Made by a program: the position numbers and the translations under genes. Source: Salipiger bermudensis HTCC2601 (GTDB lineage: Bacteria; Pseudomonadota; Alphaproteobacteria; Rhodobacterales; Rhodobacteraceae). From it: a stretch of DNA of 64,000 nucleotides. Below are positions 1 through 14,369 of the stretch, piece by piece. Below the pieces are notes generated by a model. The model saw only the letters and a list, made by a program, of their open reading frames with translations, ran no database searches and had not been told where the DNA came from. The stretch spans positions 1,197,990-1,261,989 of the forward strand of contig NZ_DS022276.1 of the NCBI RefSeq assembly GCF_000153725.1, in the 5' to 3' direction. How positions within the stretch are numbered: the stretch's first letter is position 1; every line of letters starts with the position of its first letter.

Positions 1-357
1 GTTGGGATCCTGAAGGTGGCGCAGCACCGCACCCTCGCCGGCCATAAGCTCCCAGTCCGAGCGCGCCACGCGTGGGCGCTTGCGGTCGGCATGGACGAGC
101 AGCGCCCCGGCGCTGATCATGTCGACCTTCGCCCCGGCCTGCGCCTCGATACGGTGCCGCCAGCGGTCCCCCGGCAGCAGCGCCGCCCCGGCGCATTGCG
201 GCAGCACGGTGAGCGGGCCATCACGCCCCGCCCGGCGATAGCCGCGCGGCAGCGACCACGGCCATTCGACGTGGCGCTCGAGCAGCGCCGTTCCGCCATC
301 TCGCGCCAGCCCGCAGACCAGCGCGACCTGCGGAGCCTCGCCCGGACCGTCCTTCAC
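1..357 (-). CDS. ureD: Urease accessory protein UreD, N-terminal part (runs off left edge)
   Basis: UreD is the scaffold that binds urease apoprotein with UreF and UreG during nickel delivery. Only the first 119 codons lie in the window; the rest is beyond base 1. The GTG start overlaps the ureG stop (GTGA), which sets the start. Residues about 58-115 match the UreD core pattern: a GDRWR stretch, a GAKV segment, a VHAD segment and then a [12 protein letters not shown] segment that corresponds to the family's GAGxxLExLPxE region. The usual GGxxGGD signature is replaced by AGAALLPGD, so this is a divergent member. Position as the last gene of the urease operon supports the call. Confidence 0.78.
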
Positions 358-959
358 TTGAACAGCACCTCGCGGCGCAGGTGGCCGACCACCTCGGCCA
401 CGCCCTCACCCTTGCGGCAGACGGTGGGCAGCACCGCACCGCCACCGCGCACCTCGGTCGCCTCGGCCAGCATCTTCGGGAAATCGACACCAACATGCGG
501 CGCGAGATCGGCCTTGTTGATCACCAGCAGGTTGGCCTGCAGGATCCCCGGCCCCTTCTTGCGTGGAATATCGTCGCCGCCCGCCACGTCGATCACGAAC
601 ATCCAGAAATCCACCAGGTCAGGCGAGAAGGTGGAGGCGAGGTTGTCGCCCCCCGATTCCAGCAGGATCAAGTCAAGCCCCGGAAACTCGGCCTCGAGCC
701 GGTCGGCGGCGGCCATGTTGAGCGTCGGGTCCTCTCGGATCACCGTGTGCGGACAGGCGCCCGCCTGCACCGCGCGCACCCGCTCGGGCGGCAATTGCCC
801 GCCCTTGCGCAGACGCTCGGCGTCCTCGTCGGTGACCAGATCGTTGGTGATCACCGCGGTGTCGATGCCGGCCTCGGCCAGCTCGCGCAGCATCGCCTCG
901 ATCAGTGCCGTCTTGCCCGATCCCACCGGCCCGCCAATCCCTACCCGTGCCGCGGTCAT
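354..959 (-). CDS. ureG: Urease accessory GTPase UreG
   Basis: UreG is a SIMIBI-class GTPase that carries nickel to urease; GTP hydrolysis drives release to the UreDF-apoenzyme complex in the cytoplasm. The 201-residue protein has the P-loop GPVGSGKT (residues 10-17), the metal-binding CPH motif (69-71) in [11 protein letters not shown], the family stretch [14 protein letters not shown] (100-113) and the guanine-specificity motif NKAD (148-151). Length equals the family norm. The ATG overlaps the ureC stop (ATGA), and the stop overlaps the ureD start, so translation is probably coupled along the operon. No histidine-rich N-terminal extension is present. Confidence 0.96.
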
Positions 960-2659
960 CGCAGGAAATACCGTCTTGCAAGCGGCACCTCTCGGGCCGG
1001 CTCCGCCACCATCGGCACCCCGTCCGCCTCGACCTCGAACGTCTGCGGATCGACGGTAATCTTCGGCAGAGCGGTGTTGCGGATCATGTCGCGCTTTGTC
1101 AGGGCCCGGACCGAGCGGATCTGGACGAAAGGTTTCTGCACCCCGAGCGCCGCCTCGGTCCCGGCCTCGATGGCGAGCCCGGAGACGAAGGTCACGCCCA
1201 GCTTGTGCTTGGCGGTGCCGAGCGCGCCCCACATTGGCCGGTGCACCTGCGGTTGGGCGCCGGGGAAACTGCCGTTGCCGTCGCCCATCGTCGCCCAGAC
1301 GATGGTGCCCGACTTGATCACCGTAGAGGGTTTGGCGCCAAAGAAGGCGAAGGGCCAAAGAACGATATCGGCCATCTTGCCCGGCGCGATGCTGCCGACC
1401 TCGTGGTCGATGCCGGCGGCGATGGCCGGGTTGATGGTGTACTTGGCAATGTATCTCAGGATGCGCTCGTTGTCGGCGCGGGCCGTGGTCTCCTCGGGCA
1501 GGCGTCCGACCCGGTCCTTCATCACCGAGGCCAGCTGCCAGCACTTGGCGATGTTCTCGGCCAGGCGGCCCATGCCCTGCGTGTCGGTTGCGAAGATCGA
1601 GATCGCCCCCATGTCGTGCAGCAGGTCTTCGGCGGCCATCGATTGCGGCCGGATTCGGGCCTCGGCAAAGGCCACGTCCTCGAGCAGGTCGAAGCTCATC
1701 ATGTGGGCGAGCATGGTCATCGGCACCCCCTCTTCGAGCGCCGGGAGCGTGTAGGGGTTGGTGGGGTTGGTCGAACTTGGCAGCACGTTCTCGTAGCCGT
1801 TGACCACGAGGATGTCTGGCGCGTGACCGCCGCCGGCACCTTCGGTGTGATACATGTGGATGCCACGGCCCGCGATGGCCTCCATCGTGGTCTCGTAGAA
1901 GCCGAACTCGTTGATGGTGTCGGTGTGGAGATGGACCGAGAAATCCGCCGCGTCCGCCGCGATCAGCGAGCCATCCAGCACCGCCGGGGAGGCGCCGAAA
2001 TCCTCGTGGATCTTCACCCCCAGCGCGCCGCCCGCGACGCTCTCGGCCACCGCCTCCGGGTTGGAGTTGCCGCGCCCGAGGAAGCCGAAATTGAGCGGAA
2101 ACTCGTCCGCCGCCTGGATCAGCCTGCCAAGCACGTTCGGCCCCGAGCAGGAGACGTCGAAATTCGGCCCCGGAGACATGCCGATCATCGTGGTGGTGCC
2201 GCCCGCGAGCGCGTGCCAGCTCTGCTGCGGCGACAGGAAATGCGCGTGCGCCTCGATGGCGCCTGCGGTGACGAAATGGTTGTCGCCATGCACCGTGGTG
2301 GTGTTGGGCCCGGTCACCAGATCCGGGTCGACCCCCTCCATGATGTCCGGGTTGCCGGCCTTGCCGACGCCGACGATGCGCCCGTCGCGGATGCCGATAT
2401 CGCCCTTCACGATGCCCAGCTCGGCGTCGATGATCACCGCGTTCAGGATCACCATGTCGAGCGCGCCGTTGGCCTGCGTGCCGGTGGTGCAGAAGCCCTC
2501 GCCATCGCGCATGATCTTGCCCGCACCGGCGGTCAGCTCGTCGCCATAGTGGGTGTGATCGCACTCGATCTCGGCCAACAGAGAGGTATCGCCAAGCCGC
2601 ACCATGTCGCCTGCCGTCGGCCCGTAGAGCCGGGCATAGGCGTCCCGCGTCAGTTTCAT
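956..2659 (-). CDS. ureC: Urease alpha subunit, divergent active site
   Basis: This is the catalytic nickel amidohydrolase subunit (567 residues, normal length), expected to hydrolyse urea to ammonia and carbamate. Nickel ligands are all present: His138 and His140 (EAHAH), carbamylated Lys216 and His218 (VKIHED), His245 (HLHTD), His271 ([10 protein letters not shown]) and Asp359 (ATDTQGMGR). The catalytic flap His319 and Arg335 are also present. Two highly conserved places differ. The flap CHH of standard ureases reads AHM (318-320), so the flap cysteine is alanine. The loop normally GTGPAxGTxATTCTPG reads [14 protein letters not shown] (162-175). The start overlaps the UreAB stop by ATGA. 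A functional urease or a relative with altered substrate range are both possible. Confidence 0.95.
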
Positions 2660-3330
2660 GCGCTGTATCCTTTTGCCTTGGCCCGCGTCATCGCCGCCCC
2701 GAGACCGCCTTCGACCGGGCCCTCGGTGAGGCCGGCAAAGCCATGCACCACGCGCTTGCCGCCGAAGGGGACAAGCACGACCTCCTTCTCGATGCCGGGA
2801 TCGAAGCGCTCGCCACCGCCCGAGGGCCGGTCGAGCCGCATGCCGAAGGCCGCCTCCCGGTCGAAGGAGAGCGCCTTGTTGACCTCGAAGAAATGCGCGT
2901 GGCTGCGGATCTGAATGGTCCGGTCACCGGTGTTGAGCACGCTGATCGTGCGGCGCTCGCGGCCCGCGTTGAGCTCGATCTCGCCCTGCGCGGGGATCAC
3001 CTCACCGGGCACGATCTCGTCGCCTTCGGGCGCAATCGGGTCGAACACGGTGATCAGCTTGGTGCCCTCGGCCATCGACACCTCGACCGAGAAGGTCCGC
3101 AGCAGGTGCGCCACGCCAGGCTCGACCTGATCGGCACTGAGCACGGTCGCGGCGTGGCTGACGATCTGCGAATGGGTCAGACCCTGCCGCGCCACAGTCA
3201 GCAGCTCGTCGGCGATCAGCGCCACTGCCTCGGGATGGGCGAGGCGGATGCCCATCGACAGGTAGCGCCGGGCCAGCTCGGCGGCGGTGAAGATGGTCAG
3301 CCGCTCCAGTTCGGTCGGGGTCAGGTGCAT
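2656..3330 (-). CDS. ureAB: Fused urease gamma-beta subunit (UreA-UreB)
   Basis: One 224-residue protein carries both small structural subunits. Residues 1 to about 100 are the gamma subunit (starts [11 protein letters not shown], contains the [10 protein letters not shown]-like helix and [13 protein letters not shown]). Residues about 103 to 224 are the beta subunit ([17 protein letters not shown], then [17 protein letters not shown] and [10 protein letters not shown]). In most proteobacteria these are separate genes; fusion is known from Helicobacter UreA and some other lineages. The stop overlaps the ureC start (ATGA) and the gene begins 15 bases after ureF ends, inside the operon. Confidence 0.95.
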
Positions 3331-3345
3331 CTGGGCCGTCCCTGT

Positions 3346-4008
3346 TCAGTTGATGAAAAGCCGGCCGTCGCGCGGCCGCATGAGGGCGATGTCCGACAGC
3401 GGCATGAAGCCCGAGGGCAGCGCGTCGTCATCCGGGATGTCGGCAGAGAGCTCGGCCAGCAGCGGCGCCAGCGTCAGCAGGTCGCGCTGGGTGGCGATGG
3501 CGCCCGAGACGCCGAGCCGCACGGCGGCGGAGAACGCGCCGCGCGCCATGCCATAGGCCGAGGTCATCAGCGCGGTGGGCAGGTCGAGCCCGCAGGCACG
3601 CAGAAAGTCGCCATGCACGACCGGGAAATGCCCGGTGCCGGCGCGCTCGGCCTCGGTCGCGCCGGGATCGAGGGCGATGCGCACCGCGCGGGCCGAGGCG
3701 AAGAGCGCCTCGCCGGCCTGCACGCTGTCGCGGCGCAGGCGTTCGACGGGCATCATGGTGTCGATGGTCTCGCACCACGCTGCGAGCGCCGCGCCGGAAA
3801 GGCGATGGCCGCCCGCCAGCGCCACGCGGTCGAAGCCGTGCCAGCGGGTGCGCAGCTCGGTCGCCACCCAGTCGCAGAGGCTGTGGCGGTCGACCTGCCC
3901 GTCTGCCAGCGCGCTCTCAAGCCCCCAGGAGAAGGCGAAAACACCGGAGGGGAAGCCGCTGTCGGCCAGCTGCATCGCGCGGATCACGGGAAGGCTATCG
4001 GCGCTCAT
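3346..4008 (-). CDS. ureF: Urease accessory protein UreF
   Basis: UreF acts with UreD and UreG as the GTPase-regulating part of the nickel insertion complex. The 220-residue protein begins MSADSLPVIRAMQLADSGFP and continues GVFAFSWGLES, the typical all-helical UreF N-terminus (AxQLADSxFPxGxFxxSxGLE). A later stretch with GDFLRACG and AYGMARGAFSAAVRLG fits the family. The ATG at 4008 overlaps the ureE stop (ATGA), which is preferred over a longer upstream frame that would run back into ureE. Confidence 0.92.
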   Translation of the reverse strand: MSADSLPVIRAMQLADSGFPSGVFAFSWGLESALADGQVDRHSLCDWVATELRTRWHGFDRVALAGGHRLSGAALAAWCETIDTMMPVERLRRDSVQAGEALFASARAVRIALDPGATEAERAGTGHFPVVHGDFLRACGLDLPTALMTSAYGMARGAFSAAVRLGVSGAIATQRDLLTLAPLLAELSADIPDDDALPSGFMPLSDIALMRPRDGRLFIN

Positions 4009-4478
4009 TCCGCCCCGGCGATCTCGAAGCGGGCCAGCCCCGCGAGGTCGCGCAGCCGGTCGCGGTAGCGTTCTTCGGGGCCGTCGAGCACAACGTCCAT
4101 CCAGCCCGCGCCGAACACCACCTTCCAATGCAGGTTGCCGCACCAGTGGCCCAGGCGCATGGCGTCGTCGATCGTCTCGGGGATCAGCCGCATCCGGGCC
4201 GCGCCATCGATGCGGGCCACGATGGCCAGCCCACCGTCGTGGAACAACACCGCGCCATCGGTGAGCGACTGGCCGCGCGGCAGCGCAATGGCGCAGTCGC
4301 GGCCGCGGTCGGTGGTCACGCGCATCCGCTTGCGGGCTGCGTCGGCCTCGGGGATGGAGACGAATTCCAGCCCGCCCTCGTGCTCGAGCGCGTGCAGCCT
4401 GTCGTGCCAGCGCGGCTCCGAGGCGGCGCCCAGAATCGCTTCAAGCATCAGCGGCATAGAGAGGGGATGCTCGGTCAT
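4005..4478 (-). CDS. ureE: Urease accessory nickel metallochaperone UreE
   Basis: UreE is the dimeric nickel chaperone that supplies UreG. The 157-residue protein has the UreE signature around the interfacial metal-binding histidine, GHWCGNLHW (residues 110-118), and an N-terminal beta domain with DRGRDCAIALPRGQSL. It lacks the histidine-rich C-terminal tail seen in Klebsiella UreE, as many homologues do. A purine-rich GAAAGGGA site lies just before the ATG at 4478; a longer frame upstream has no ribosome site and would overlap the intercistronic hairpin. The gene is first in the urease block and follows the amidase by 70 bases. Confidence 0.88.
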   Translation of the reverse strand: MTEHPLSMPLMLEAILGAASEPRWHDRLHALEHEGGLEFVSIPEADAARKRMRVTTDRGRDCAIALPRGQSLTDGAVLFHDGGLAIVARIDGAARMRLIPETIDDAMRLGHWCGNLHWKVVFGAGWMDVVLDGPEERYRDRLRDLAGLARFEIAGAE

Positions 4479-4509
4479 GCGCGGTCCCTTTCGAGGAAAA
4501 GGCCCGCCC

Positions 4510-4527
4510 CCGCGGATGCGGGGACAG
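4510..4527 (-). other. Intercistronic hairpin between amidase and ureE
   Basis: On the transcribed minus strand a CCCCGC / GCGGGG stem with a four-base loop lies in the 70-base gap between the amidase stop and ureE. It is followed, after a GCGGGCC stretch, by only four T. It might partially attenuate or stabilise the downstream urease message. It is too weak in T to be called a terminator. Confidence 0.35.
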
Positions 4528-4548
4528 GCGAGGTCACGGGGAAAGAGC

Positions 4549-6063
4549 TTACCAACCGGTCCAGTCGCCGGATTTCTCGAACGCGTCGCCCAGCGTGTAG
4601 AGCGTGGCCTCATCCCACATCTTGCCCACCAGCATCATGCCGACCGGCAGGTCTCCGACCTTGCCGCAGGGCACCGACAGCGCCGGGTGATGGGTGATGT
4701 CGAACGGCGCAGTGTTCGGCAGCATCTCGAAGGCGCGCTGCACGATCTCTTCGCGGCTGGCATCCGGGCCGGGGATCGGGGTCGCAATGATCGGCACGGT
4801 CGGCATCAGGATGGCGTCGTAATCGGCCAGCACCGCGTCATAGGCCGCGCGCAGCGTCTTCACGATGTTGAACGCCTTGCCGTAGAAGCGCTTGCCGTAC
4901 TGGTCGTCGGCGAACTGCGCGAACAGCATCCCCAGCTTCAGGGTCTCGGACAGTTCGTCGGCGCGCTCGCGCCAGCCGCGGTGGAAATCCATGAAGCTGG
5001 TCACGTAGAGGTCGGGCCGCGAGGTGCCGTAGCCGTCGCCCAGCATCATCGTCTGGGTCAGGCCCTGAAGGCCGATCGGGGTCCAGATGTCGAGGCCGTC
5101 GAGATGCATCGGGATCGACACCTCCTCAACGATCACGCCCAGCTCTTCGAGTTTCTTGGCCGCGGCACGCACCTTCTCGTCGACCTCGGTCTCGGATTGC
5201 GGATGGCCAAAGCCCTCCTTGAGCAGCGCGACCTTCATGCCCTTGACCGGTTTGCCCAGCGCCTCGGTGTAGTCCGACACGCTGACATCGATCTGGCGGC
5301 TGTCATAGCCATCGGGGCCGGCCAGCACTTCGAGCATCAGCGCGTTGTCAGCGACGCTCGAGGTGATCGGGCCGGCGTGGTCGATGGTGATCTCGATTGG
5401 CACGATGCCGGTATAGGGCACCAGCCCGTGGGTCGGCTTCATCCCGACGGTGCCGCAGAACGCCGAGGGCATGCGGATCGAGCCGCCCTGATCGCCGCCG
5501 ATGGCCAGATCGACCTCGCCCTTGGCGACCAGCGCCGCCGAGCCCGAGGACGAGCCGCCTGCCGACTTTGTCGGATCGTTGGGGTTGCAGACCGGGCCCA
5601 GCGCCGAGGTGTGCGAGCCGCCGGACATGCAGAAACACTCGCAATGCGCCTTGCCGAGAATGGTGGCTCCGGCGTCGAGCATCCGGGTGACGATGGTGGC
5701 GTCGACATTGGGCACGTAGCCCTCCAGCGTCGAGGAGCCGTTCATCATCTGCACGCCGGCGAGCATGACGTTGTCCTTCAGCGCCACGGTCTTGCCCTTG
5801 AGCTTGCCCTCGGGCGCCCCCTCGACGGTGGATTTCACGTACCACGCGTTGAGCTCGTTCTCTTCCTTCGGAGGCTGCACGCCCATGCTGCGCGGGTAGC
5901 CCACCTCGGGCAGCGGATCGACCATCAGGTCGACCTTGTTGTAGGCATCGACATAGCCCTGCATCAGGCCCTGGAAGGATTTCACGTCGGCGGGAGACAG
6001 CGAAAAGCCCATCCGCGCCGCGACTTCGGCCAATTGTTCCTCGTTCGGAAGTTTCACAGACAT
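4549..6063 (-). CDS. Amidase, Rhodococcus enantioselective-amidase type
   Basis: An amidase-signature enzyme of 504 residues that should hydrolyse a carboxamide to acid and ammonia by a Ser-cisSer-Lys triad. Residues Lys96 (VALKDNV), Ser171 (GGSSSGSA) and Ser195 (GGDQGGSIRMP) are in place and fall at the same numbers as in the nitrile-degradation amidase of Rhodococcus, which it resembles along the length (ENELNAWYV, MNGSSTLEGY, GFGHP, NTAPFDITHHPALSVPCG). The start at 6063 has AAGGA eight bases upstream; an ATG 18 bases earlier does not. It sits between the ABC importer and urease genes in one operon, suggesting it acts on the imported compound. Substrate is unknown. Confidence 0.9.
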   Translation of the reverse strand: MSVKLPNEEQLAEVAARMGFSLSPADVKSFQGLMQGYVDAYNKVDLMVDPLPEVGYPRSMGVQPPKEENELNAWYVKSTVEGAPEGKLKGKTVALKDNVMLAGVQMMNGSSTLEGYVPNVDATIVTRMLDAGATILGKAHCECFCMSGGSHTSALGPVCNPNDPTKSAGGSSSGSAALVAKGEVDLAIGGDQGGSIRMPSAFCGTVGMKPTHGLVPYTGIVPIEITIDHAGPITSSVADNALMLEVLAGPDGYDSRQIDVSVSDYTEALGKPVKGMKVALLKEGFGHPQSETEVDEKVRAAAKKLEELGVIVEEVSIPMHLDGLDIWTPIGLQGLTQTMMLGDGYGTSRPDLYVTSFMDFHRGWRERADELSETLKLGMLFAQFADDQYGKRFYGKAFNIVKTLRAAYDAVLADYDAILMPTVPIIATPIPGPDASREEIVQRAFEMLPNTAPFDITHHPALSVPCGKVGDLPVGMMLVGKMWDEATLYTLGDAFEKSGDWTGW

Positions 6064-6102
6064 CCGTTCAGTCCTTGTCATGATGTATCGGGTAAGCGTG
6101 GG

Positions 6103-6123
6103 TCCCGGCCCGTCAGCGGGCCG
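6103..6123 (-). other. GC-rich hairpin between ATPase gene and amidase gene
   Basis: The 75-base gap between the second ABC ATPase and the amidase contains a CGGCCCG / CGGGCCG inverted repeat with a four-base loop. No T-tract follows on the transcribed strand, so it is more likely an mRNA processing or stability element than a terminator. Confidence 0.35.
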
Positions 6124-6138
6124 GGGCCGGAACCGGGA

Positions 6139-6852
6139 TCAGGCGGTGAAGCCCATGAAAGCGCTGACCGCGCCCGCGTCGGTAAGTTCCTCGCGCGGGA
6201 TCTCCTTCTCGAGCACCCCGTTCGAGATCGCGTAGACGCGGTTCGACAGGCCGGTGATGAAATCGAGGTTCTGCTCCACCAGCACGATGGTGATGTCGAT
6301 CTGCCTGGTCAGCCCGGCGAGCGTCTCGGAGATTTCGTCGATGATCGATGGCTGGATGCCCTCGGTCGGCTCGTCGAGCAGCATCAGCTTGGGGTGGCGC
6401 GCAAGGCAGCGGGCCAGCGCCAGAAGCTGCTGTTCACCGCCCGACAGCGCGCCGCCGCGCCGGTCGAGCAGGCGCTTGAGGCGCGGGAAGAGCTCGAGCA
6501 TCTCGTCGGTGGTGCGGGCGACCTCGGCCTTGTTGCCGGGGATCGCCACGTGCAGGTTCTCTTCCACGCTGAGATTGGGGAAGATCTGCCGGCCCTGCGG
6601 CACCAGCCCGATGCCCTGCTTGGCGCGGGCATTGACCGCGGTGCCGAGGATCGACTTGTCCTCGAACAGGATATCGCCGCCGGTCACCTTCACGTAGCCC
6701 ATGATCGAGCGCATCAGCGTGGTCTTGCCCATGCCGTTATGCCCAAGGATGCCGACCACCTCGCCGCGATTGGCGTGAAAGTCGACGCGATGCAGCGCCG
6801 GCACCAGCCCGTAGGCCGCCGACAGCCCTTTGACCTCAAGCAGCTGCGACAT
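6139..6852 (-). CDS. ABC transporter ATP-binding protein, LivF/UrtE type
   Basis: Second ATPase of a branched-chain amino acid / urea / short-amide type importer, working at the inner face of the membrane. The 237-residue protein has Walker A GHNGMGKTT (37-45), signature LSGGEQQ near residue 137, Walker B MLLDEPTEGIQP and the H-loop region replaced by the LivF-typical VLVEQN. The start overlaps the end of the upstream ATPase gene by 17 bases. Together with the four genes before it this makes a complete importer. Similarity to LivF, UrtE and FmdF types cannot be separated by eye. Confidence 0.92.
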   Translation of the reverse strand: MSQLLEVKGLSAAYGLVPALHRVDFHANRGEVVGILGHNGMGKTTLMRSIMGYVKVTGGDILFEDKSILGTAVNARAKQGIGLVPQGRQIFPNLSVEENLHVAIPGNKAEVARTTDEMLELFPRLKRLLDRRGGALSGGEQQLLALARCLARHPKLMLLDEPTEGIQPSIIDEISETLAGLTRQIDITIVLVEQNLDFITGLSNRVYAISNGVLEKEIPREELTDAGAVSAFMGFTA

Positions 6853-7570
6853 TGGCCTGTTTCCCCAGATAGATTTCCTGGACCTCGCGGTCCTGCATGA
6901 TGTCGTCGATCATCGCCTCGCGGAAGATGGCGCCGCGGTTGAACACGGTGACGAACTTGGCGATCTGGCGGATGAAGGCCATGTCGTGCTCGACCACGAC
7001 CACCGCGGCGCTGCGGGCGCTTTCCAGCACCAGCTGCGCCAGCCGGTCGCGCTCGTCCCCGGTCATGCCGGCGGCGGGCTCGTCGAGCAGGATCAGCTTG
7101 GGCTCGCCCGCCAGCACCATCGCCAGCTCGACCAGCTGGCGCTGGCCATGGCTCAGCAGGCCGACCTCGCGCTTGGCCAGATGGGTGATGCCGCAGCGCT
7201 CGAGCGTGGTGTGGGTCAGCTCCCTGGCCATCGGCGCGAGGTGCTTGCGCCGGGCCGACAGGCGGACGTTCTCGTAGGCCGAGATGCCGTCGAACACGTT
7301 CGGCACCTGCGTCTTGATGCCGACCCCGAGATTGACGATCTGGTGCGTCAGCGCCCCGGTCACGTCCTGCCCGGCGAAGGTGATCTTGCCCTCTGTCGGC
7401 GTGAGCTGGCCGGTGAGGCACTTGAAGAAGGTGGACTTGCCCGCCCCGTTCGGCCCCAGCAGGCAGCGCAGTTCGCCATCGCGGAGGTTGAAGTCGACAT
7501 TGTCCACCGCCGTGACACCGCCGAAGCGCATGGTCAGGCCGCGGGTGGTGAGGATGTGTTCGGTCGTCAT
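6836..7570 (-). CDS. ABC transporter ATP-binding protein, LivG/UrtD type
   Basis: First ATPase of the importer, 244 residues. Walker A is GPNGAGKST (39-47), the signature is LSHGQRQ (139-145), Walker B LILLDEPAAGMTGDE and the switch histidine is in VVEHDM. The LivG-type sequence at residues 80-100 (NLGVGIKTQVPNVFDGISAYEN) has KTQVPNVF, a form common in urea and amide importers, where amino-acid importers usually have a TFQ form. The ATG overlaps the permease stop (ATGA), so the start is well fixed. Confidence 0.92.
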   Translation of the reverse strand: MTTEHILTTRGLTMRFGGVTAVDNVDFNLRDGELRCLLGPNGAGKSTFFKCLTGQLTPTEGKITFAGQDVTGALTHQIVNLGVGIKTQVPNVFDGISAYENVRLSARRKHLAPMARELTHTTLERCGITHLAKREVGLLSHGQRQLVELAMVLAGEPKLILLDEPAAGMTGDERDRLAQLVLESARSAAVVVVEHDMAFIRQIAKFVTVFNRGAIFREAMIDDIMQDREVQEIYLGKQANVAAA

Positions 7571-8607
7571 TCCTTCACCACCTTTCCCGAGATCGCCTGC
7601 CCTTGGTTGCGCTTCCACAGGATGTAACCGCCAAGCAGTAGCGACCGGGCGGTCGGCACGATGCCCTTGGGCAGCGCCAGCACCAGCACCATCATGATCG
7701 CGCCCAGCACGGCGATCGAGTTCACCACATCGACTGTGCCGAGCTGCAGCGTCAGCCATTGCAGCAGAATGCAGCCGATGATCGGGCCGACCAACGTACC
7801 GACGCCCCCGGCCATGACCCAGACCAGCGCCTTGGCCGACATCTCCATCGAGACCGAGTTCGGGTCGATGAAGGCCTGGTAGGTGGCCCACATGGCACCG
7901 GCGATGCCGGCAATGCCGCCGCCGATGGCGAAGACGATGACCTTGTGCTTGCGCACGTCGTAGCCCAGCAGCGACGACCGGGTCTCGTTCTCGCGGATGC
8001 TGATCGAGACGCGGCCGAAATCCGAGGCGATGAGGAAGCGCAGCGCCACGTAGATCACCAGCAGGAAGCCCATGAAGACCTGGAACATCTGGCCCGGGTC
8101 GAGCCAGGCCGAGGGGTCTCCGGGCACGTGCAGCGTCGGGATCGAGGGAATGCCGTTGAAGCCGCCGAGACGCGCGCTGCCGATCGAGTACTCGGGGCCG
8201 GCGGTGTGGTTGATCAGCTTCCAGAAGATCAGCGCCACCACCAGCGTCACCACGCCGAGATAGACGTCCGAGAGGCGCCCGTAGAACATGAAGTAGCCCA
8301 GCGCGGCGCCGAACAGGGTGGGAATGACGAAGGCCAGCACCATGGGGATCGTGGTGCTGCCCATGTTGATCGAGGCCACCGCGAAGGTATAGGCGCCGAG
8401 GCCGAAGAAGGCGGCCTGACCGAAGCTCAGGATGCCTCCGAAACCCCAGATGTAGCCCAGCGACAGGGCGAAGACCGAGAGCACCACGTACTGGGTGATC
8501 TGCATGATGGTGAAGAGATCCAGCATCACCGGGGCGATGAACATCACGGCAAGGCCGATGGCCACCATGACGTAGAAGCCGGGATCTCGGGTGACGGGTT
8601 TTTCCAT
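7567..8607 (-). CDS. ABC transporter permease, LivM/UrtC type
   Basis: Second membrane subunit of the importer, 346 residues, with about eight to ten hydrophobic segments. The family hallmark GFGGILSFGQAAFFGLGAY occurs near residue 55, and the cytoplasmic coupling segment with SIRENETRSSLLGYDVRKHK near residue 205. GGVGTLVGPIIG near residue 265 is also typical. It starts 13 bases after the other permease gene ends and its stop overlaps the next ATPase gene. Confidence 0.93.
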   Translation of the reverse strand: MEKPVTRDPGFYVMVAIGLAVMFIAPVMLDLFTIMQITQYVVLSVFALSLGYIWGFGGILSFGQAAFFGLGAYTFAVASINMGSTTIPMVLAFVIPTLFGAALGYFMFYGRLSDVYLGVVTLVVALIFWKLINHTAGPEYSIGSARLGGFNGIPSIPTLHVPGDPSAWLDPGQMFQVFMGFLLVIYVALRFLIASDFGRVSISIRENETRSSLLGYDVRKHKVIVFAIGGGIAGIAGAMWATYQAFIDPNSVSMEMSAKALVWVMAGGVGTLVGPIIGCILLQWLTLQLGTVDVVNSIAVLGAIMMVLVLALPKGIVPTARSLLLGGYILWKRNQGQAISGKVVKE

Positions 8608-8620
8608 GATCCGTGGTCCC

Positions 8621-9487
8621 TCAGAGCGATTTCTTGAAGATGCGGCCGGTGATGCCCTGCGGCAGCAGGCGCAGCAGCACCAGCGCGGCGAGGAGCAGGG
8701 CGGCGTCGCCGTAGACCGGACCCGTCAGGAAGGTCATGCCCTGGCTGATCGAGCCCAGCAGCGTGGCGGCCGAAAGCGTGCCGGTGATGACCGAGGCACC
8801 GCCGGTGATCACGGTGATGAAGCTCTGGGCGATGAAGTTCACGCCCATCGTCGGCACCACCCCGGTAAGCGGCGCCAGCAGCGCGCCGGCAAAGCCGGTG
8901 ATCGCCGAGCCGATGCCGAAGGTCGCCATGTAGACCCAGCGGGTCGGGATCCCCAGCGCCTCGGACATGTCCGGGTTCTGCATCGTGGCACGGGCGATCA
9001 GCCCGGCCTTGGTGAATTTCAGCACCGCCCAGATCGCCAGCAGAAGCGCGATGGCGGCGAAGATCAGCACGAAGTTGTAGCGCGGCACCTGGTAGGCGCC
9101 GATGCTCATGCCGCCGAGCGGGGTCGCGACCCCGGTGACGGAGTTTCCGAAGATCATCGTCACCCCGCCGATCATCAGCATCGACAGCCCCCAGGTGGCC
9201 AGGAGGCTGTCGAGGATCCGGCCGTAGAGCCGCTGGATCACCAGCCGCTCCACGAGAACACCGAATATGCCCACCACGATGGGCGCAAGGACAAGCATGG
9301 CGATCCACTCGTTCACGCCGTGACCGGTGGAGATGACCACCGTGTATCCGCCCAGCATCAGGAATTCGCCATGGGCGAAGTTGATGATGCGCATCATGCC
9401 GAAGATGATCGCCAGTCCCGAGGCCAGCAACACCAGCCAGGCAACGGCGCGCACCATCTCCAGCGCGACAACGATTGTATAATCCAT
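8621..9487 (-). CDS. ABC transporter permease, LivH/UrtB type
   Basis: First membrane subunit of the importer, 288 residues, largely hydrophobic. The LivH signature FGMMRIINFAHGEFLMLGGY is near residue 30 and the coupling loop RATMQNPDMSEALGI near residue 165. The ATG at 9487 is preceded by AGGAGA at good spacing; an in-frame GTG 15 bases earlier sits upstream of that ribosome site and is less likely. The gene follows the binding-protein gene by 23 bases. Confidence 0.92.
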   Translation of the reverse strand: MDYTIVVALEMVRAVAWLVLLASGLAIIFGMMRIINFAHGEFLMLGGYTVVISTGHGVNEWIAMLVLAPIVVGIFGVLVERLVIQRLYGRILDSLLATWGLSMLMIGGVTMIFGNSVTGVATPLGGMSIGAYQVPRYNFVLIFAAIALLLAIWAVLKFTKAGLIARATMQNPDMSEALGIPTRWVYMATFGIGSAITGFAGALLAPLTGVVPTMGVNFIAQSFITVITGGASVITGTLSAATLLGSISQGMTFLTGPVYGDAALLLAALVLLRLLPQGITGRIFKKSL

Positions 9488-9510
9488 ACGTGTCTCCTGC
9501 ACCCTTCGGA

Positions 9511-10746
9511 TCAGAGGCTGATCTCGAAGTGCTGGTTCGAATCCGGGTTCTCGACCAGGTCACAGACCATCTGCGTGTCGGTCGGCGGGCTGTCAGGGAA
9601 GCTCTCCTTGATGTTGAAGACCTGGTCCTGCAGCTCGGCGATGTAGACGTCGCGGATGGCGTGCTGGGTCTTGGGATCGATCTTCACCTTGCCGGCCGGC
9701 AGGTCGTAGGCCTTGCCCGAGGTCAGCACTTCGAGCAGCGGATCGCGCTCGGTGGTGCCGGCTTCGCGCACCGCGTCGGCCCAGATCATCATGCCCTCGT
9801 AGGTGACTTCCGAGATCTCGGACATCACCCAGTCCTTGTCGGGATATTCCTGCGCCACGCGCTCGAGGAAGGCCTTGTTGGTCGGGTTGTCGATCTCTTC
9901 GAAATAGCCGAACGACGCGGTGATGCCGTTGCCCTCTTCGGCGGTCAGGATCAGCTGGTCCGAGCCGCCAGCGCCGAGCACCGTCGACATGACCGGGATC
10001 TCCGACTTCATGCCGGCCGCCGCCCACTGGCGATAGAAGCCGAGATGCGAGGTGCCGACCAGCGCCGACAGAACGAAGTCGGGCGCCGCGCCCTGGATCT
10101 TCGAGATCGTCGAGCCGAACTGTGCCACGTCGAGCGGGAAGAACTCGGTCTCGATGACCTCGCCGCCGTTTTCCTCGACATAGCGCTTCACCCACGCGGC
10201 GGTGATGTGGCCGTAGTTGTAGTCGGCCGCGATGGTGTAGACCTTCTTGCCGTAGAGGTTCATGCCATAGGGGATCAGGCGCGCCACGGTCTGGGCCGGG
10301 GTGGTGCCGAGGGTGATCTCGTTGCGGTCGCAGACGCCGCCTTCGTACTGGGTGTTGTAGAAGTAGAAGGTGTCGTAGCGGTGGAAGATCGGGCGGATGG
10401 TCTCACGCGAGGCCGAAGTGATGCCGCCCATGACAACGTCGACCTGATCCCGCAGCGCCATCTGCGTGGCGTATTGCGAATAGAGCGACATGTTCGACTG
10501 CGGATCGTAGATCACCGCCTCGACCTCGCGGCCGAGCAGCCCGCCGGCCTCGTTGATCTCCTTGATCGCCATCTGGAAGACCTGGTTCATCGGAACGCCG
10601 ACCGCGTCGAGCGCACCGGAGAGGTCGTGCAGGCCGCCCACCTTGATGGTGTCAGACTGGGCGCGGGCGATGATCGGGGACGCCAGCGTCGCAGCCGCCG
10701 CGGCGGTGCTGGTGTGAAGGAATTTCCGTCTGCTGAGGATGGTCAT
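9511..10746 (-). CDS. Periplasmic binding protein for urea, short amides or branched-chain amino acids
   Basis: Type I periplasmic-binding fold protein of 411 residues, first gene of the long leftward operon. It has a twin-arginine-like signal (SRRKFLHTS, then an alanine-rich stretch ending around ARAQ). The ligand-side sequences FYFYNTQYEGGVCDRN and YTIAADYNYGHITAAWVKRYVEENGG match the UrtA/FmdD/AmiC group more than LivK. An AGGGA ribosome site precedes the ATG. Binding-protein identity plus adjacent amidase and urease genes point to urea, formamide-like amides or carbamoyl compounds as ligand; this is inference. Confidence 0.88.
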   Translation of the reverse strand: MTILSRRKFLHTSTAAAAATLASPIIARAQSDTIKVGGLHDLSGALDAVGVPMNQVFQMAIKEINEAGGLLGREVEAVIYDPQSNMSLYSQYATQMALRDQVDVVMGGITSASRETIRPIFHRYDTFYFYNTQYEGGVCDRNEITLGTTPAQTVARLIPYGMNLYGKKVYTIAADYNYGHITAAWVKRYVEENGGEVIETEFFPLDVAQFGSTISKIQGAAPDFVLSALVGTSHLGFYRQWAAAGMKSEIPVMSTVLGAGGSDQLILTAEEGNGITASFGYFEEIDNPTNKAFLERVAQEYPDKDWVMSEISEVTYEGMMIWADAVREAGTTERDPLLEVLTSGKAYDLPAGKVKIDPKTQHAIRDVYIAELQDQVFNIKESFPDSPPTDTQMVCDLVENPDSNQHFEISL

Positions 10747-11093
10747 GGTCGGGTCCCTGTTGGTTTTTTGTACTCACCCGACCCTTTATCATTTTATTGA
10801 ATTCGCAAATATCTCGATAGAGATCACCATGCGAGAAACATTTTTCGCTTAAATCTTCACCGAAAACCAAGGGACCCTGATGAGGAACCAGACGCTTTCA
10901 GGCTAGAATCGGCGCATTTTAGCGTCGAACCAAGACATTCTCGTCGTGTAAGACCGGCATCCGGACAACCCGGGTCGCCTGAGGTCGAAGCCAATTCTCT
11001 TGATCATAAATATTTTCCATTTCAATAATAATGCAGAATCCGACCTACCCAGCCGTATGGCAGGGCCCCGGCGAGACCCACACGGAGAGCCTC
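10747..11093. promoter_or_regulatory. Divergent control region between importer/urease operon and nitrilase gene
   Basis: This 347-base region has no gene and is clearly richer in A and T than its surroundings. It must hold the promoters for both the leftward operon and the rightward nitrilase-amidase pair. It contains a dyad ATCTC-GATA-GAGAT at 10811-10824, 65 to 78 bases upstream of the binding-protein start, a possible regulator site. No TGGCAC-N5-TTGCA sigma-54 element was found on inspection of either strand. Confidence 0.6.
11000..11029 (+). promoter_or_regulatory. Candidate housekeeping promoter for nitrilase gene
   Basis: TTGATC at 11000-11005 and AATAAT at 11024-11029 are 18 bases apart, close to the sigma-70 consensus. 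Transcription would begin near 11036, about 58 bases before the chosen start codon of the nitrilase gene. If so, an in-frame ATG at 11031 would be excluded from the message. Confidence 0.35.
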
Positions 11094-12842
11094 ATGACCG
11101 CCCCCTTCAAAGCCGCCACGATCCAGTTCGAACCGACCATGTTCGAGAAGGAGCGCAACATCGCCACCCTGCTCGATATGTGCGAGGAGGCCGCCTCCGA
11201 CGGCGCCAAGCTGATCGTGACACCGGAGATGGGGACCACCGGCTATTGCTGGTACGACCGAGCCGAGGTGGCCTCGGAGGTCGAGCCGATCCCCGGCCCG
11301 ACCACTGCGCGCTTCCAGAAGATCGCCGCCGCGCATGACTGCTACATCGTCGTGGGCCTGCCCGAGATCGACCCGGTGACCGAGCTCTACTACAACAGCG
11401 CCGCTCTGATCGGCCCCGAGGGTGTGGTCGGCAAGCATCGCAAGTCGCACCCCTATATCGCCGAGCCCAAGTGGGCCGCCTCGGGCGACGTGGCGCACGA
11501 GGTCTTCGACACCAAGATCGGTCGCATCGCGATCCTGATCTGCATGGATCTGCATTTCTTCGAAACCGTGCGGCTTGAGACCCTCGCCGGGGCCGACGTG
11601 ATCTGCCACATCTCGAACTGGCTGGCCGAGCGCACCCCGGCCCCCTACTGGATCACCCGCGCCTTCGAGAACGCCTGTTACGTCATCGAATCGAACCGCT
11701 GGGGACTCGAGCGCACCGTGCAGTTCTCGGGCGGAAGCTGCATCATCGGCCCCGACGGTCAGATCGAGGCGCAGATCGACGGCGGCAATGGCATCGTCAC
11801 CGGCACCATCGACCCTGCGCGCGCCCGCGAGCGCCTCGTGCTCGGCGAGCCGGTCTTCGACATGCGCCGGCCGGATCTCTACAAGACCCTGATGACCAAC
11901 AGCTTCACGTGGAACCCGCTGGATTTCCACCGGCTCTACGGATACCAGCCGCTGCCCGAGGGCGGCCCTTCGATGCTTGCGGTCGCACAGTTTTCACCGG
12001 GCCCCGACAGCGCCGAAAACCTCGCCAAGATCGCCGACTTCGCCGCCGAGGCGAAGGCCGCCGGCGCCGCGCTTCTGGTTCTCCCCGAGTTGGCGCTCAC
12101 CGGCACCGATGATCCATCCGCGCGGGCCGAGCCCATCACCGGCGAGACCGTGGCGGCGTTCACACGCATCGCCATGCGCCAGCGCCTGCACATGGTGGCG
12201 GGCTTTGCCGAGCGCGACGGAGAGCACCTCTACAACACCGTCGTGCTGAGCGGCCCCGAGGGCCGCGTCGGAAGCTATCGCAAGATCCATCTCGGGCAGG
12301 CGGATCGCGGCTGGGCCAGCGCCGGCAGTGACTGGGCGGTGTTCGACCTGCCCTTCGGACGGTTGGGCCTGCTCACCGGTCACGATGCGCTGCTGCCCGA
12401 GGCGGCGCGCGTGCTGGCGCTCGAGGGCTGCGACGCGGTGGCCTGCCCGGCCGCGCTGCCGCCGGGTTTCACCGGCGCGCATAAGGGCACCAGCGTTCCG
12501 CACAACGCGCCCATCCCGAAAGGCGCCGATCCCTATCACTGGCACGCCTTCCGCGCCCGCAGCGGCGAGAACAACCTGCATCTCGTCTTCGCCAACGGTT
12601 GCGATCCCGAGGCGGGCAACGCCGGCCACAGCGGCATCTTCGGCACCGACACCTTCGCCTTCCCGCGCGACGAGAGCGCCATTCTCGACGACGAGGGCAT
12701 GGCGCTTCTGGCCATCGACACCGGCAATCTCGACACGCCCTACCCGACCAGCACGGTGCGGCGGAAGGACCTGATCACAATGCGCCTGCCGCATCACTAC
12801 GGTCCGCTGGTGATCGAAGGCAGTCAGCTCGCGGTGGATTGA
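11094..12842 (+). CDS. Two-domain nitrilase-superfamily amidohydrolase, second domain without nucleophile
   Basis: A 582-residue protein with two tandem carbon-nitrogen hydrolase domains. Domain 1 (about 5-255) has the intact triad Glu45 (VTPEMG), Lys117 (KHRKSH) and Cys150 (LICMDLHF). Domain 2 (about 295-545) keeps Glu332 (LPELALTG) and Lys397 (YRKIHLGQ), but the cysteine position is glycine: GLLTGHDALLPE with Gly429. Domain 2 is therefore probably structural or regulatory. The chosen ATG has GGAGAG just upstream; an in-frame ATG at 11031 has none. It lies divergent from the importer/urease operon and 99 bases before an amidase gene. Members act on nitriles, amides or N-carbamoyl compounds; the substrate here is unknown. 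Confidence 0.88.
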   Translation: MTAPFKAATIQFEPTMFEKERNIATLLDMCEEAASDGAKLIVTPEMGTTGYCWYDRAEVASEVEPIPGPTTARFQKIAAAHDCYIVVGLPEIDPVTELYYNSAALIGPEGVVGKHRKSHPYIAEPKWAASGDVAHEVFDTKIGRIAILICMDLHFFETVRLETLAGADVICHISNWLAERTPAPYWITRAFENACYVIESNRWGLERTVQFSGGSCIIGPDGQIEAQIDGGNGIVTGTIDPARARERLVLGEPVFDMRRPDLYKTLMTNSFTWNPLDFHRLYGYQPLPEGGPSMLAVAQFSPGPDSAENLAKIADFAAEAKAAGAALLVLPELALTGTDDPSARAEPITGETVAAFTRIAMRQRLHMVAGFAERDGEHLYNTVVLSGPEGRVGSYRKIHLGQADRGWASAGSDWAVFDLPFGRLGLLTGHDALLPEAARVLALEGCDAVACPAALPPGFTGAHKGTSVPHNAPIPKGADPYHWHAFRARSGENNLHLVFANGCDPEAGNAGHSGIFGTDTFAFPRDESAILDDEGMALLAIDTGNLDTPYPTSTVRRKDLITMRLPHHYGPLVIEGSQLAVD

Positions 12843-12941
12843 CCCTTGCCGGTCGGGCGTGGAACATCGCGCCCGACCGACCACGGGAACGTGCATGCCT
12901 TTCCGGATCGCCACCACCGCCCATCCGAAGAGGCCACGCCC

Positions 12942-14369
12942 ATGACCACTCCGCTCCCCGCCACGCTCACCGATGCTGCCGCCACCGATCTCGCGGCGGC
13001 GCTTCGCAACAAGCAGATCTCGGCCCGCGACTTGATGCAGGCGGTGCTCGACCGCATCGACGCCACCAACCCCGCAATCAACGCCATCGTCACCCTGCGC
13101 GCCCGCGACACGCTGATCGCCGAGGCCGAGGCGATGGACGCCGCGCCACATCCCGGCCCGCTCGCCGGTCTGCCGATCGCGGTGAAGGATCTCGTGGCGA
13201 CGAAAGGCATGCGCACCACCTATGGCTCGCCGGTTTTTTCAGATCATGTGCCCGCTGCGGACGATCTTGTCGCCGCACGGCTGCGCGCCGCCGGGGCCAT
13301 CCTGATCGGCAAGACCAACACGCCGGAATGGGGCCACGGCTCGCACAGCTTCAACCCGATCTTCGGCGCCACCCGCAATCCCTATGACACCACGCGCACC
13401 GCCGGCGGCTCCTCGGGCGGCGCTGCGGCGGCGCTGGCGGCGCGGATGCTGCCGCTGGCCGACGGCTCGGACATGATGGGATCGCTGCGCAATCCCGCCG
13501 CATTCTGCAACGTCTACGGATTTCGCCCGAGCTGGGGCTTGGTGCCTCCGGACGCGGGCGGTGACACCTTCCTGTCGACACTGGCCACCGAAGGTCCGAT
13601 GGCGCGCAGCCCGCGCGACGTGGCCCTCCTGCTTTCGGCCCTCGCAGGCCCGAACCCCGAGGTGCCGTTCGGGCGCGCCTCGGAAGACTTCACCGCCCGC
13701 TTCGGCGCGGGGCTGAAAGGCAAGCGCATCGGCTGGCTCGCCGACTGGGGCGGCGCCTATGCCACCGAGCCCGGCATCCTCGAGACCGTGGAGGCGTCGC
13801 TGAAGGTCTTCGAAGCGCTCGGTGCCATCGTCGAGCCGGTCCAGGCCCCCTACCCGGCCGAAGAGCTCTGGTCGTCGTGGATCACCCTGCGCGCGGCGCT
13901 CAATGCAGGCGCCAAGCGCGATCTCGCCGCCGATCCGGCCAAGCGCGCGCTCACCAAGCCCGAGTCGCTGTGGGAGATCGAACAGGGTCAGGGGCTGAGC
14001 GCCGAGGCCGTCTACGAGGCCAGCAAGACACGCTCGCTCTGGTATCGCCGCGCCGCGCGGCTGTTCGAAACCTACGACGCGCTCGCCCTGCCCAGCGCGC
14101 AGGTCTGGCCCTTCCCGGCGGACTGGCGCTGGCCCGAGGAGATCGCGGACCGCAAGATGGACACCTATCACCGCTGGATGGAGATCGTGGTGCCGGTGAG
14201 CCTTGCCGGGCTGCCCTGCCTCGGAATGCCCGCCGGGTTCTCGCAATCGGGCCTGCCGATGGGGATGCAGCTCTTCGGCCCTACCGGCAGCGATGCCGCG
14301 CTGCTGGCGATGGGCGACGCCTACCATCAGGCGACCGACTGGCCGAACGCCTGCCCGCCCGCGCTCTGA
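12942..14369 (+). CDS. Amidase-signature family amidase
   Basis: A 475-residue amidase. The Ser-cisSer-Lys triad is visible: Lys82 (PIAVKDL), Ser157 in TAGGSSGG, and Ser181 in GSDMMGSLRNPAAF. It differs from the other amidase of this locus, which has GGDQGGSIRMP at the same place, so the two are not recent duplicates. The ATG at 12942 has AAGAGG nine bases upstream and begins the conserved domain at once. It probably shares a message with the nitrilase gene and ends before a strong terminator. It most likely completes deamidation of a product of the same pathway; this is inferred from position. Confidence 0.88.
   Translation: MTTPLPATLTDAAATDLAAALRNKQISARDLMQAVLDRIDATNPAINAIVTLRARDTLIAEAEAMDAAPHPGPLAGLPIAVKDLVATKGMRTTYGSPVFSDHVPAADDLVAARLRAAGAILIGKTNTPEWGHGSHSFNPIFGATRNPYDTTRTAGGSSGGAAAALAARMLPLADGSDMMGSLRNPAAFCNVYGFRPSWGLVPPDAGGDTFLSTLATEGPMARSPRDVALLLSALAGPNPEVPFGRASEDFTARFGAGLKGKRIGWLADWGGAYATEPGILETVEASLKVFEALGAIVEPVQAPYPAEELWSSWITLRAALNAGAKRDLAADPAKRALTKPESLWEIEQGQGLSAEAVYEASKTRSLWYRRAARLFETYDALALPSAQVWPFPADWRWPEEIADRKMDTYHRWMEIVVPVSLAGLPCLGMPAGFSQSGLPMGMQLFGPTGSDAALLAMGDAYHQATDWPNACPPAL

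Follow-up and report, generated by a model that had tools for sequence, protein, structure and literature searches.

A conserved amidase–urease cassette in Salipiger bermudensis and other Rhodobacterales, possibly for scavenging nitrogen from small carboxamides and ureas

Introduction

Amide operons that combine an AmiC-type receptor with an ATP-binding cassette (ABC) importer, like importers that carry urea as well as short amides, have been described before (PMC13209695, PMC10781810, PMC3098086): the fmdCABDEF genes of Methylophilus are described there as importing short-chain amides and urea (PMC10781810), and a Urt-like importer beside amidase genes has been argued to carry amides (PMC3098086). 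Urease, for its part, is annotated as a single-substrate enzyme. Here we describe a locus of Salipiger bermudensis HTCC2601 (contig NZ_DS022276.1, positions 1,197,990 to 1,261,989; this 64,000-nucleotide stretch is hereafter “the window”) in which a Urt-family importer, a Rhodococcus-type amidase (AmdA) and a urease with an altered active-site flap form a conserved gene cassette. We tentatively propose that the cassette is a nitrogen-scavenging operon for small -CO-NH2 compounds, whose importer would feed both the amidase and a urease of shifted specificity. Among the titles and abstract openings listed by a literature search, which covered few subscription papers, there was no account of an amdA–urease cassette, an ATPase–amidase fusion or a urease clade whose flap is altered.

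Measured against canonical urease (K. aerogenes, 1EJW and 1FWA, whose numbering is used for all UreC residues), the cassette enzyme retains the nickel ligands, Lys217, His219, His320, Arg336 and Asp360, together with accessory proteins D, E, F and G, but differs in a fused UreAB, the gene order EF-AB-C-G-D, a shorter loop 163–172 and, in the alignment, the substitutions H321M, C319A, W222F, P324F and A363G. The sister “type-2” urease clusters (Shinella, G176) share the fused UreAB, the ure gene order, the short loop, A363G, a urt-type importer, an amide-type sensor and an amidase; they differ in their CHHL flap, in a nitrilase-type aliphatic amidase where the cassette has AmdA, in AmiR/ANTAR where it has MarR, and in a proline at the place of the YN motif of the periplasmic substrate-binding protein (SBP). 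The first-pass annotation of this DNA had held that urease operons usually carry urea transport only; having amidases nearby is not peculiar to the cassette urease, as this sister type too lies beside AmiC/ANTAR genes and an aliphatic amidase. Type-2 clusters are not uniform in this respect, and none is annotated with an amidase in the stretches from Aminobacter and Methylobacterium.

On the amidase side, urease-less urtABCDE–AmdA operons share with the cassette a related importer plus AmdA (12 of 12 loci from the order Rhodobacterales), the SBP signature described below (12/12), an AmiC-like receptor (10/12) and MarR (8/12), but they gave no urease match in the stretches read, and AmdA is fused to a UrtE-like ATPase in 9 of the 12. 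The UrtABCDE urea importer is of the same family and subunit set, but all five cassette subunits score under its equivalog cut-offs. The Rhodococcus sp. amidase 3A1K resembles AmdA over its full length (E 1.2e-145) with the catalytic triad kept, but differs from it at positions 143, 144, 146 and 320. Finally, the cassette has the AmiC-type receptor of the AmiC–AmiR amide regulon, with the AmiR/ANTAR partner replaced by MarR.

Layout of the operon

From the letters of the sequence, the first-pass annotation had described a leftward importer–amidase–urease operon, with a nitrilase and a second amidase divergent from it, and open reading frames and family profile searches confirmed the named genes in place. 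The minus-strand operon comprises 12 genes (an SBP, two permeases, two ATPases, amdA, ureE, ureF, fused ureAB, ureC, ureG and ureD), as follows:

1–357, minus strand: ureD, N-terminal 119 of 265 codons (PF01774, 83.2 bits for the full protein); the remainder lies past the window edge, the whole gene being at L004 13550–14347
354–959, minus strand: ureG, urease GTPase (TIGR00101, 229.8 bits, cut-off 204.2)
956–2659, minus strand: ureC, catalytic subunit of the urease, its flap and loop altered (TIGR01792, 713.7 bits, cut-off 680; residue alignment; tree)
1649–1732, minus strand: codons of the altered UreC flap (alignment)
2656–3330, minus strand: ureAB, fused gamma/beta urease subunits (NF009671, 287.6 bits, cut-off 243)
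3346–4008, minus strand: ureF, accessory protein (PF01730, 71.7 bits, cut-off 23.3; no NCBIfam match)
4005–4478, minus strand: ureE, nickel chaperone (PF02814, 41.4 bits)
4549–6081, minus strand: amdA, Rhodococcus-type amidase-signature amidase (NF005565, 775.7 bits, cut-off 545; nearest solved structure 3A1K)
6139–6852, minus strand: urtE-like ATPase (TIGR03410, 257 bits, under cut-off 285.8)
6836–7570, minus strand: urtD-like ATPase (TIGR03411, 237.4 bits, under cut-off 304.1)
7567–8607, minus strand: urtC-like permease (TIGR03727, 278.7 bits, under cut-off 575.55)
8621–9487, minus strand: urtB-like permease (TIGR03622, 264.1 bits, under cut-off 374.25)
9511–10746, minus strand: SBP with YN / ADYNYG signature (PF13433, 284.7 bits; TIGR03407, 241 bits, under cut-off 492.75)

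Neighbouring genes overlap by 4 nt at five junctions (ureD/G, G/C, C/AB, F/E and urtD/C) and by 17 nt at urtE/D, as in an operon, and thus point to a single predicted transcription unit. The cluster continues past the window edge on the genome contig (G000:C6) with the rest of ureD, then amd3, a gene for an AmiC-like receptor and marR.

A urease clade with an altered flap

The UreC of the cassette is 52% identical to the genome's own canonical UreC. All 12 cassette copies keep the nickel ligands and catalytic residues (H134, H136, K217, H246, H272, D360, H219, H320 and R336), but the flap reads LAHMM vs. VCHHL in the canonical enzyme, and the loop 163–172 around Ala167 is four residues shorter. 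The combination of a CHHL flap with Ala363 is found in K. aerogenes and in 41/41 canonical rows (24 + 17), as against AHMM with Gly363 in the cassette. According to PMC7433671, the NH2 groups of urea are held by the backbone carbonyls of αAla170 and αAla366, and the closed flap positions the flap His323 (320 in K. aerogenes numbering) next to urea; by the paper's own offset the two alanines correspond to positions 167 and 363, and both sites are altered in the cassette enzyme.

In a tree of 59 UreC sequences (canonical rows L046–L063 and the duplicates L095, L096, L097 and L105 having been dropped beforehand), the cassette type falls within a clade of 19, with support of 100/100 and a long stem (0.96). 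H312G and D314P occur in all 19 clade members, and position 313 has changed from Leu to Val in 18 and to Ile in one. Position 321 is Met in the cassette copies and Pleomorphomonas, and Ile or Gln in the rest of the clade. Gene neighbours could be read for 18 of the 19 (the contig of G428 is too short): amdA belongs to the cluster in 16 (the 12 Rhodobacterales copies and four others from Alphaproteobacteria: G600, G911, G438 and Pleomorphomonas, where the order differs, with the ure genes first and amdA after the importer), and other amidases in two, both Rhizobium plasmids, which carry an oligopeptide-type importer and a gene of the acetamidase/formamidase family. Overall, these features make it possible, if no more than a tentative reading, that the cassette UreC represents a urease subfamily with a main substrate other than urea, in which flap position 321 and the loop would be tuned to substituted ureas or amides that accompany the AmdA substrates.

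The same gene could also be a redundant or decaying second urease, brought in by horizontal transfer and with no dedicated role, and its patchy spread would agree with this: within its own genus it occurs in two of the four sampled genomes, and across the order sample in 6 of 244. Yet dN/dS in ureC is low (0.10–0.19 over four pairs), which corresponds to purifying selection, the catalytic residues are kept, the AHMM flap is identical in the 12 Rhodobacterales copies and Pleomorphomonas, and gene order and accessory set are conserved, so that we consider decay or redundancy very improbable.

Four further sequences (L098, L100, L103 and L106) represent other UreC types with varied flap positions 319/321 (CHLL, VHHL, CHTL); around L103 and L106 (loci L139 and L138), the urease references matched ureAB and ureC only.

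Importer and binding protein

All five importer subunits fall under the cut-offs of the Urt urea-transporter equivalogs, the SBP scoring 241 bits against the UrtA cut-off of 492.75, and a true UrtA (537 bits) is encoded elsewhere in the same genome. The SBP carries two motifs, YN and ADYNYG, that recur in 30 of 34 amdA-linked SBPs (the window's included), whether urease is present or not, and in none of eight comparison SBPs (the genome's own UrtA and seven SBPs of sister urease clusters), all of which have Pro in place of Asn. By analogy with the family, these motifs are inferred to line the ligand site. Because the signature spans most amdA operons, the SBP scores under the UrtA cut-off and the true UrtA lies elsewhere, the importer appears for the most part to go with the amidase rather than with urea. 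In line with the imported amide or ureido compound suggested by the first-pass annotation, the SBP motifs and the separate UrtA support a cargo that is probably of amide type rather than simply urea. In G438, where the importer belongs to a different type (29–37% identity), amdA nevertheless precedes ureE, which suggests that the core pair of the cassette consists of the amidase and the urease.

These data bear on a parallel form of scavenging, in which a broad importer would bring in urea along with short amides, with the urease acting on urea and the amidase on amides, much as in the Methylophilus fmd-type system. The dual cargo of fmdCABDEF and the argument for amide transport by a Urt-like importer cited above speak for it, as do the sister clusters that combine urt, urease and aliphatic amidase genes and the score of the cassette UreC above the urease cut-off. 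Such a role is harder to reconcile with an importer that lies under every Urt cut-off, with an SBP motif unlike those of true UrtA and of the seven sister urease clusters, and with a UrtA and urease elsewhere in the genome; we regard it as rather unlikely.

Amidases and nitrilase

AmdA passes the score of the Rhodococcus-type family (PRK07235, 775.7 vs. 545), and its Lys-cisSer-Ser triad (K96/S171/S195) is kept in all 30 aligned rows, 3A1K included. Relative to 3A1K, Asp is replaced by Cys at 143, Leu by Phe at 144, Phe by Met at 146 and Trp by Met at 320, which we take to be pocket positions. Three other hydrolase genes surround the operon:

11094–12842, plus strand: nit2, two-domain nitrilase-superfamily protein, an optional member (PF00795, 268.1 bits, two stretches; 11094 is the likely start)
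12942–14369, plus strand: amd2, second amidase-signature amidase (NF005686, 693.4 bits; 12942 is the likely start)
L004 12055–13560, plus strand: amd3, third amidase, convergent, past the window edge beyond ureD

The first-pass annotation had placed three hydrolases around the urease in one pathway, and this found no support: nit2 lies upstream of the operon in only 4 of 10 named relatives, no amd2 orthologue was found by the operon in any of the 10 within the flanks read (a single 37% partial amidase match occurs in L014), and the conserved extra amidase is amd3, outside the window (amd3 and the AmiC-like gene both follow the operon in 9/10 relatives, the tenth contig stopping earlier). Lacking such conservation, amd2 was rejected as a member of the system and is probably a passenger. 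All five aligned copies of nit2 keep the catalytic Cys in domain 1 and lack it in domain 2, the positions of the Glu-Lys-Cys triad having been assigned by eye. Of the neighbouring genes covered by family searches, none encodes a nitrile hydratase.

A separate observation concerns the urease-less amdA loci, of which 9 of 20 (9/12 in the order, 0/7 in the class, and not L017) encode the UrtE-like ATPase and AmdA as one frame of 783–809 residues (L083 at 8781–11171, L084–L089, L093 and L094); in the one example examined, the fused protein carries both ABC_tran and Amidase domains. In such a fusion the importer ATPase would be tied to the very enzyme that uses up the imported compound. An AMP-binding gene of acyl-CoA synthetase type (PF00501) adjoins the fused amidase in L083 (7045–8757) and L086 (10957–12705), and by eye a similar-looking frame lies in L088 (7734–9506), which suggests that the acid product may be activated there.

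Distribution of the cassette

Scanning the named genomes for AmdA yielded 27 loci, with AmdA identity of at least 50% in 12, and the full urtABCDE-amdA-ureEF-AB-C-G-D order was found in 10 of these 12 (the 10 named relatives). With the window and G035, the cassette thus exists as 12 distinct Rhodobacterales copies, and since gene order is conserved, the neighbourhood is not by chance. The gene-order search that the first-pass annotation had proposed for Rhodobacterales therefore recovered the operon itself, but the divergent nitrilase lies beside it in only a minority of the relatives. Among 244 genomes sampled across the order, UreC matches occurred in 213 and reached at least 81% identity in six, the others being at most 58% among the matches listed; AmdA matches occurred in 19 and reached at least 71% in the same six genomes, with gaps of ~1.9 kb between the two genes. 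This co-occurrence, along with the conserved order, bears out the idea that importer, amidase and urease form one unit. The remaining 13 AmdA genomes showed 55–58% identity; 12 of these loci were read, with a urt-type importer in every one and no urease match in the stretches read. In the class sample (385 genomes), UreC of at least 65% was found in four, all with AmdA, and in the phylum sample (398 genomes) likewise in four, all of the same class, Alphaproteobacteria. A second UreC match was present in 9 of 9 genomes checked (six of the order and three of the class sample, G911 being outside the check and the second match of G159 known by count only), a count that denotes redundancy and is not significant alone, since 213 of 244 order genomes have some UreC.

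Between ureD and amd3, three relatives carry an isochorismatase-family cysteine hydrolase (L015 16339–17031, L016 16775–17485 and L080 1864–2571), a distant relative of RutB (ureidoacrylate hydrolase) and of biuret hydrolase.

In G438, G600, G911 and all 12 Rhodobacterales copies, amdA is the gene immediately upstream of ureE, which would also fit a sequential route. On this view AmdA or Amd3 would release urea and an acid from an N-acylurea or related amide that has been taken up, and the co-expressed urease would then split the urea. The three isochorismatase-family hydrolases next to ureD and the score of UreC above the urease cut-off point the same way. Still, with a second UreC at hand the need for a dedicated urease is not obvious, the altered flap is left unexplained, and amdA occurs without a cassette-type urease in 13/19 amdA genomes of the order sample and 36/40 of the class sample; we thus hold this route to be unlikely. 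A stepwise pathway ending in urea, as first suggested for this DNA, is possible, but a non-urea substrate fits at least as well, because the flap and loop of UreC are altered and a canonical urease is encoded elsewhere in the genome.

Regulation

The candidate regulatory features, two of them genes past the window edge, are:

10797–10812, plus strand: operator-like motif TTGAATTCGCAAATAT (motif search)
11010–11025, minus strand: operator-like motif, inverted second copy TTGAAATGGAAAATAT (motif search)
L004 10869–11909, minus strand: AmiC-like receptor (PF13458, 207.6 bits)
L004 10318–10740, minus strand: marR (PF01047)

The receptor matches AmiC itself (1PEA, E 1.3e-16) and, more closely, 8TG1 (E 5.5e-30); judged by eye from relatives, it starts at MKVGLILS and has no signal peptide. 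Its partner is a marR gene, not AmiR/ANTAR, and a MarR-like frame follows the AmiC-like gene in 9 of 9 relative loci read. Antitermination of the AmiR/ANTAR kind was for this reason dropped, the finding concerning the AmiC-like gene's neighbour and not an ANTAR search of the whole genome. Two RNA-based ideas were dropped as well: the urtA leader matched no Rfam family up to E 5, which gives no sign of a riboswitch or other known RNA, and the leader of the window folds no better than shuffles (z −0.52). Many amdA operons that have no urease show the same AmiC-like and MarR pairing.

Two inverted copies of TTGAAWNNNNAAATAT lie in the urtA/nit2 control region of the window, and across 11 loci the exact pattern before urtA is present in both copies in six, in one copy in three and in none in two. 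With a motif model built from the urtA sites (p-values from shuffles in simple two-base blocks), a best match at p ≤ 0.04 was obtained between amd3 and the AmiC-like gene in 10/10 loci (the score being low, at 9.7, in one of them) and, at the same threshold, upstream of marR in 7/10, failing in three (one borderline); scores of at least 17 also occur at 11 of 377,958 positions in other loci. In the whole 5.48 Mb genome the pattern TTGAAWNNNMAAATAY has four matches, three of them in the cluster, and the reversed pattern none; two of these three helped define the pattern, so that the marR copy alone is independent. Provisionally, this candidate operator would link the genes past the window edge with the operon into one regulon.

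Proposed mechanism and points against it

It is tempting to combine these features into one scheme. A cytoplasmic AmiC-like receptor would sense a -CO-NH2 compound and, together with the MarR repressor, would control the urtA/nit2, amd3/AmiC and marR promoters through the common TTGAAWNNNNAAATAT operator, the motif being observed and its binding predicted. The ABC importer, to judge from an SBP signature found in most AmdA operons, may take carboxamides and N-substituted ureas as one class of ligand. AmdA, whose catalytic residues are in place, and probably Amd3 too, would then cut carboxamides to acid and ammonia, and UreABC, with the residues of a nickel hydrolase, may cut substituted ureas (possibly urea) to amine, CO2 and ammonia. 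The two arms may act in parallel, or in series on a molecule that bears both groups. Plain urea appears disfavoured as the cargo, because UrtA and a canonical urease are encoded elsewhere and the SBP signature is typical of most amdA operons. Overall, the interpretation given in the first-pass annotation is partly supported.

Several observations count against this scheme. The cassette UreC passes the cut-off of the curated urease alpha equivalog, and clade-specific changes are not enriched at active-site segments (p 0.099; flap alone p 0.094; 26 clade-specific among 223 conserved sites, in a test that omitted the four intermediate rows L098, L100, L103 and L106). The shorter loop and A363G are common to sister ureases that retain CHHL, some of them beside allantoin or urate genes, and because these carry both changes, the short loop and A363G probably tolerate urea; C319A, moreover, occurs in a solved K. 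aerogenes chain (AHHL). The cassette's own AmiC-like sensor is without the YN/ADYNYG signature, as are 4 of the 34 amdA-linked SBPs (L130, L168, L170 and L172), one of which (L130, in G438) is urease-linked. These four exceptions weaken the SBP argument slightly, and we left our estimate for the scavenging scheme unchanged because all four belong to one separate importer type. To these points must be added, on the regulatory side, the two loci lacking the motif before urtA, the three failures before marR and the derivation of the model from urtA sites.

If the main substrate of the cassette UreC is indeed not urea, the clade's members carry a wrong name in annotation, and the chemistry of nickel ureases extends beyond urea. 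A clade with kept catalytic residues, an altered flap and amidase genes beside the urease in every readable case would offer a direct test of whether a supposedly single-substrate family has diversified. It also calls for caution, because urea use may be scored wrongly where it is read from urease genes in a genome. The AmiC-like and MarR pair would moreover represent an amide-uptake regulon of several alphaproteobacterial lineages, some of them with the ATPase–amidase fusion.

Neighbouring genes

In the window, nit2 and amd2 are followed by clpB on the minus strand. In Paracoccus lichenicola (L015 3–5057), a second urt-type importer, a gene of the FmdA family (PF03069) and another amidase lie directly upstream of the cassette.

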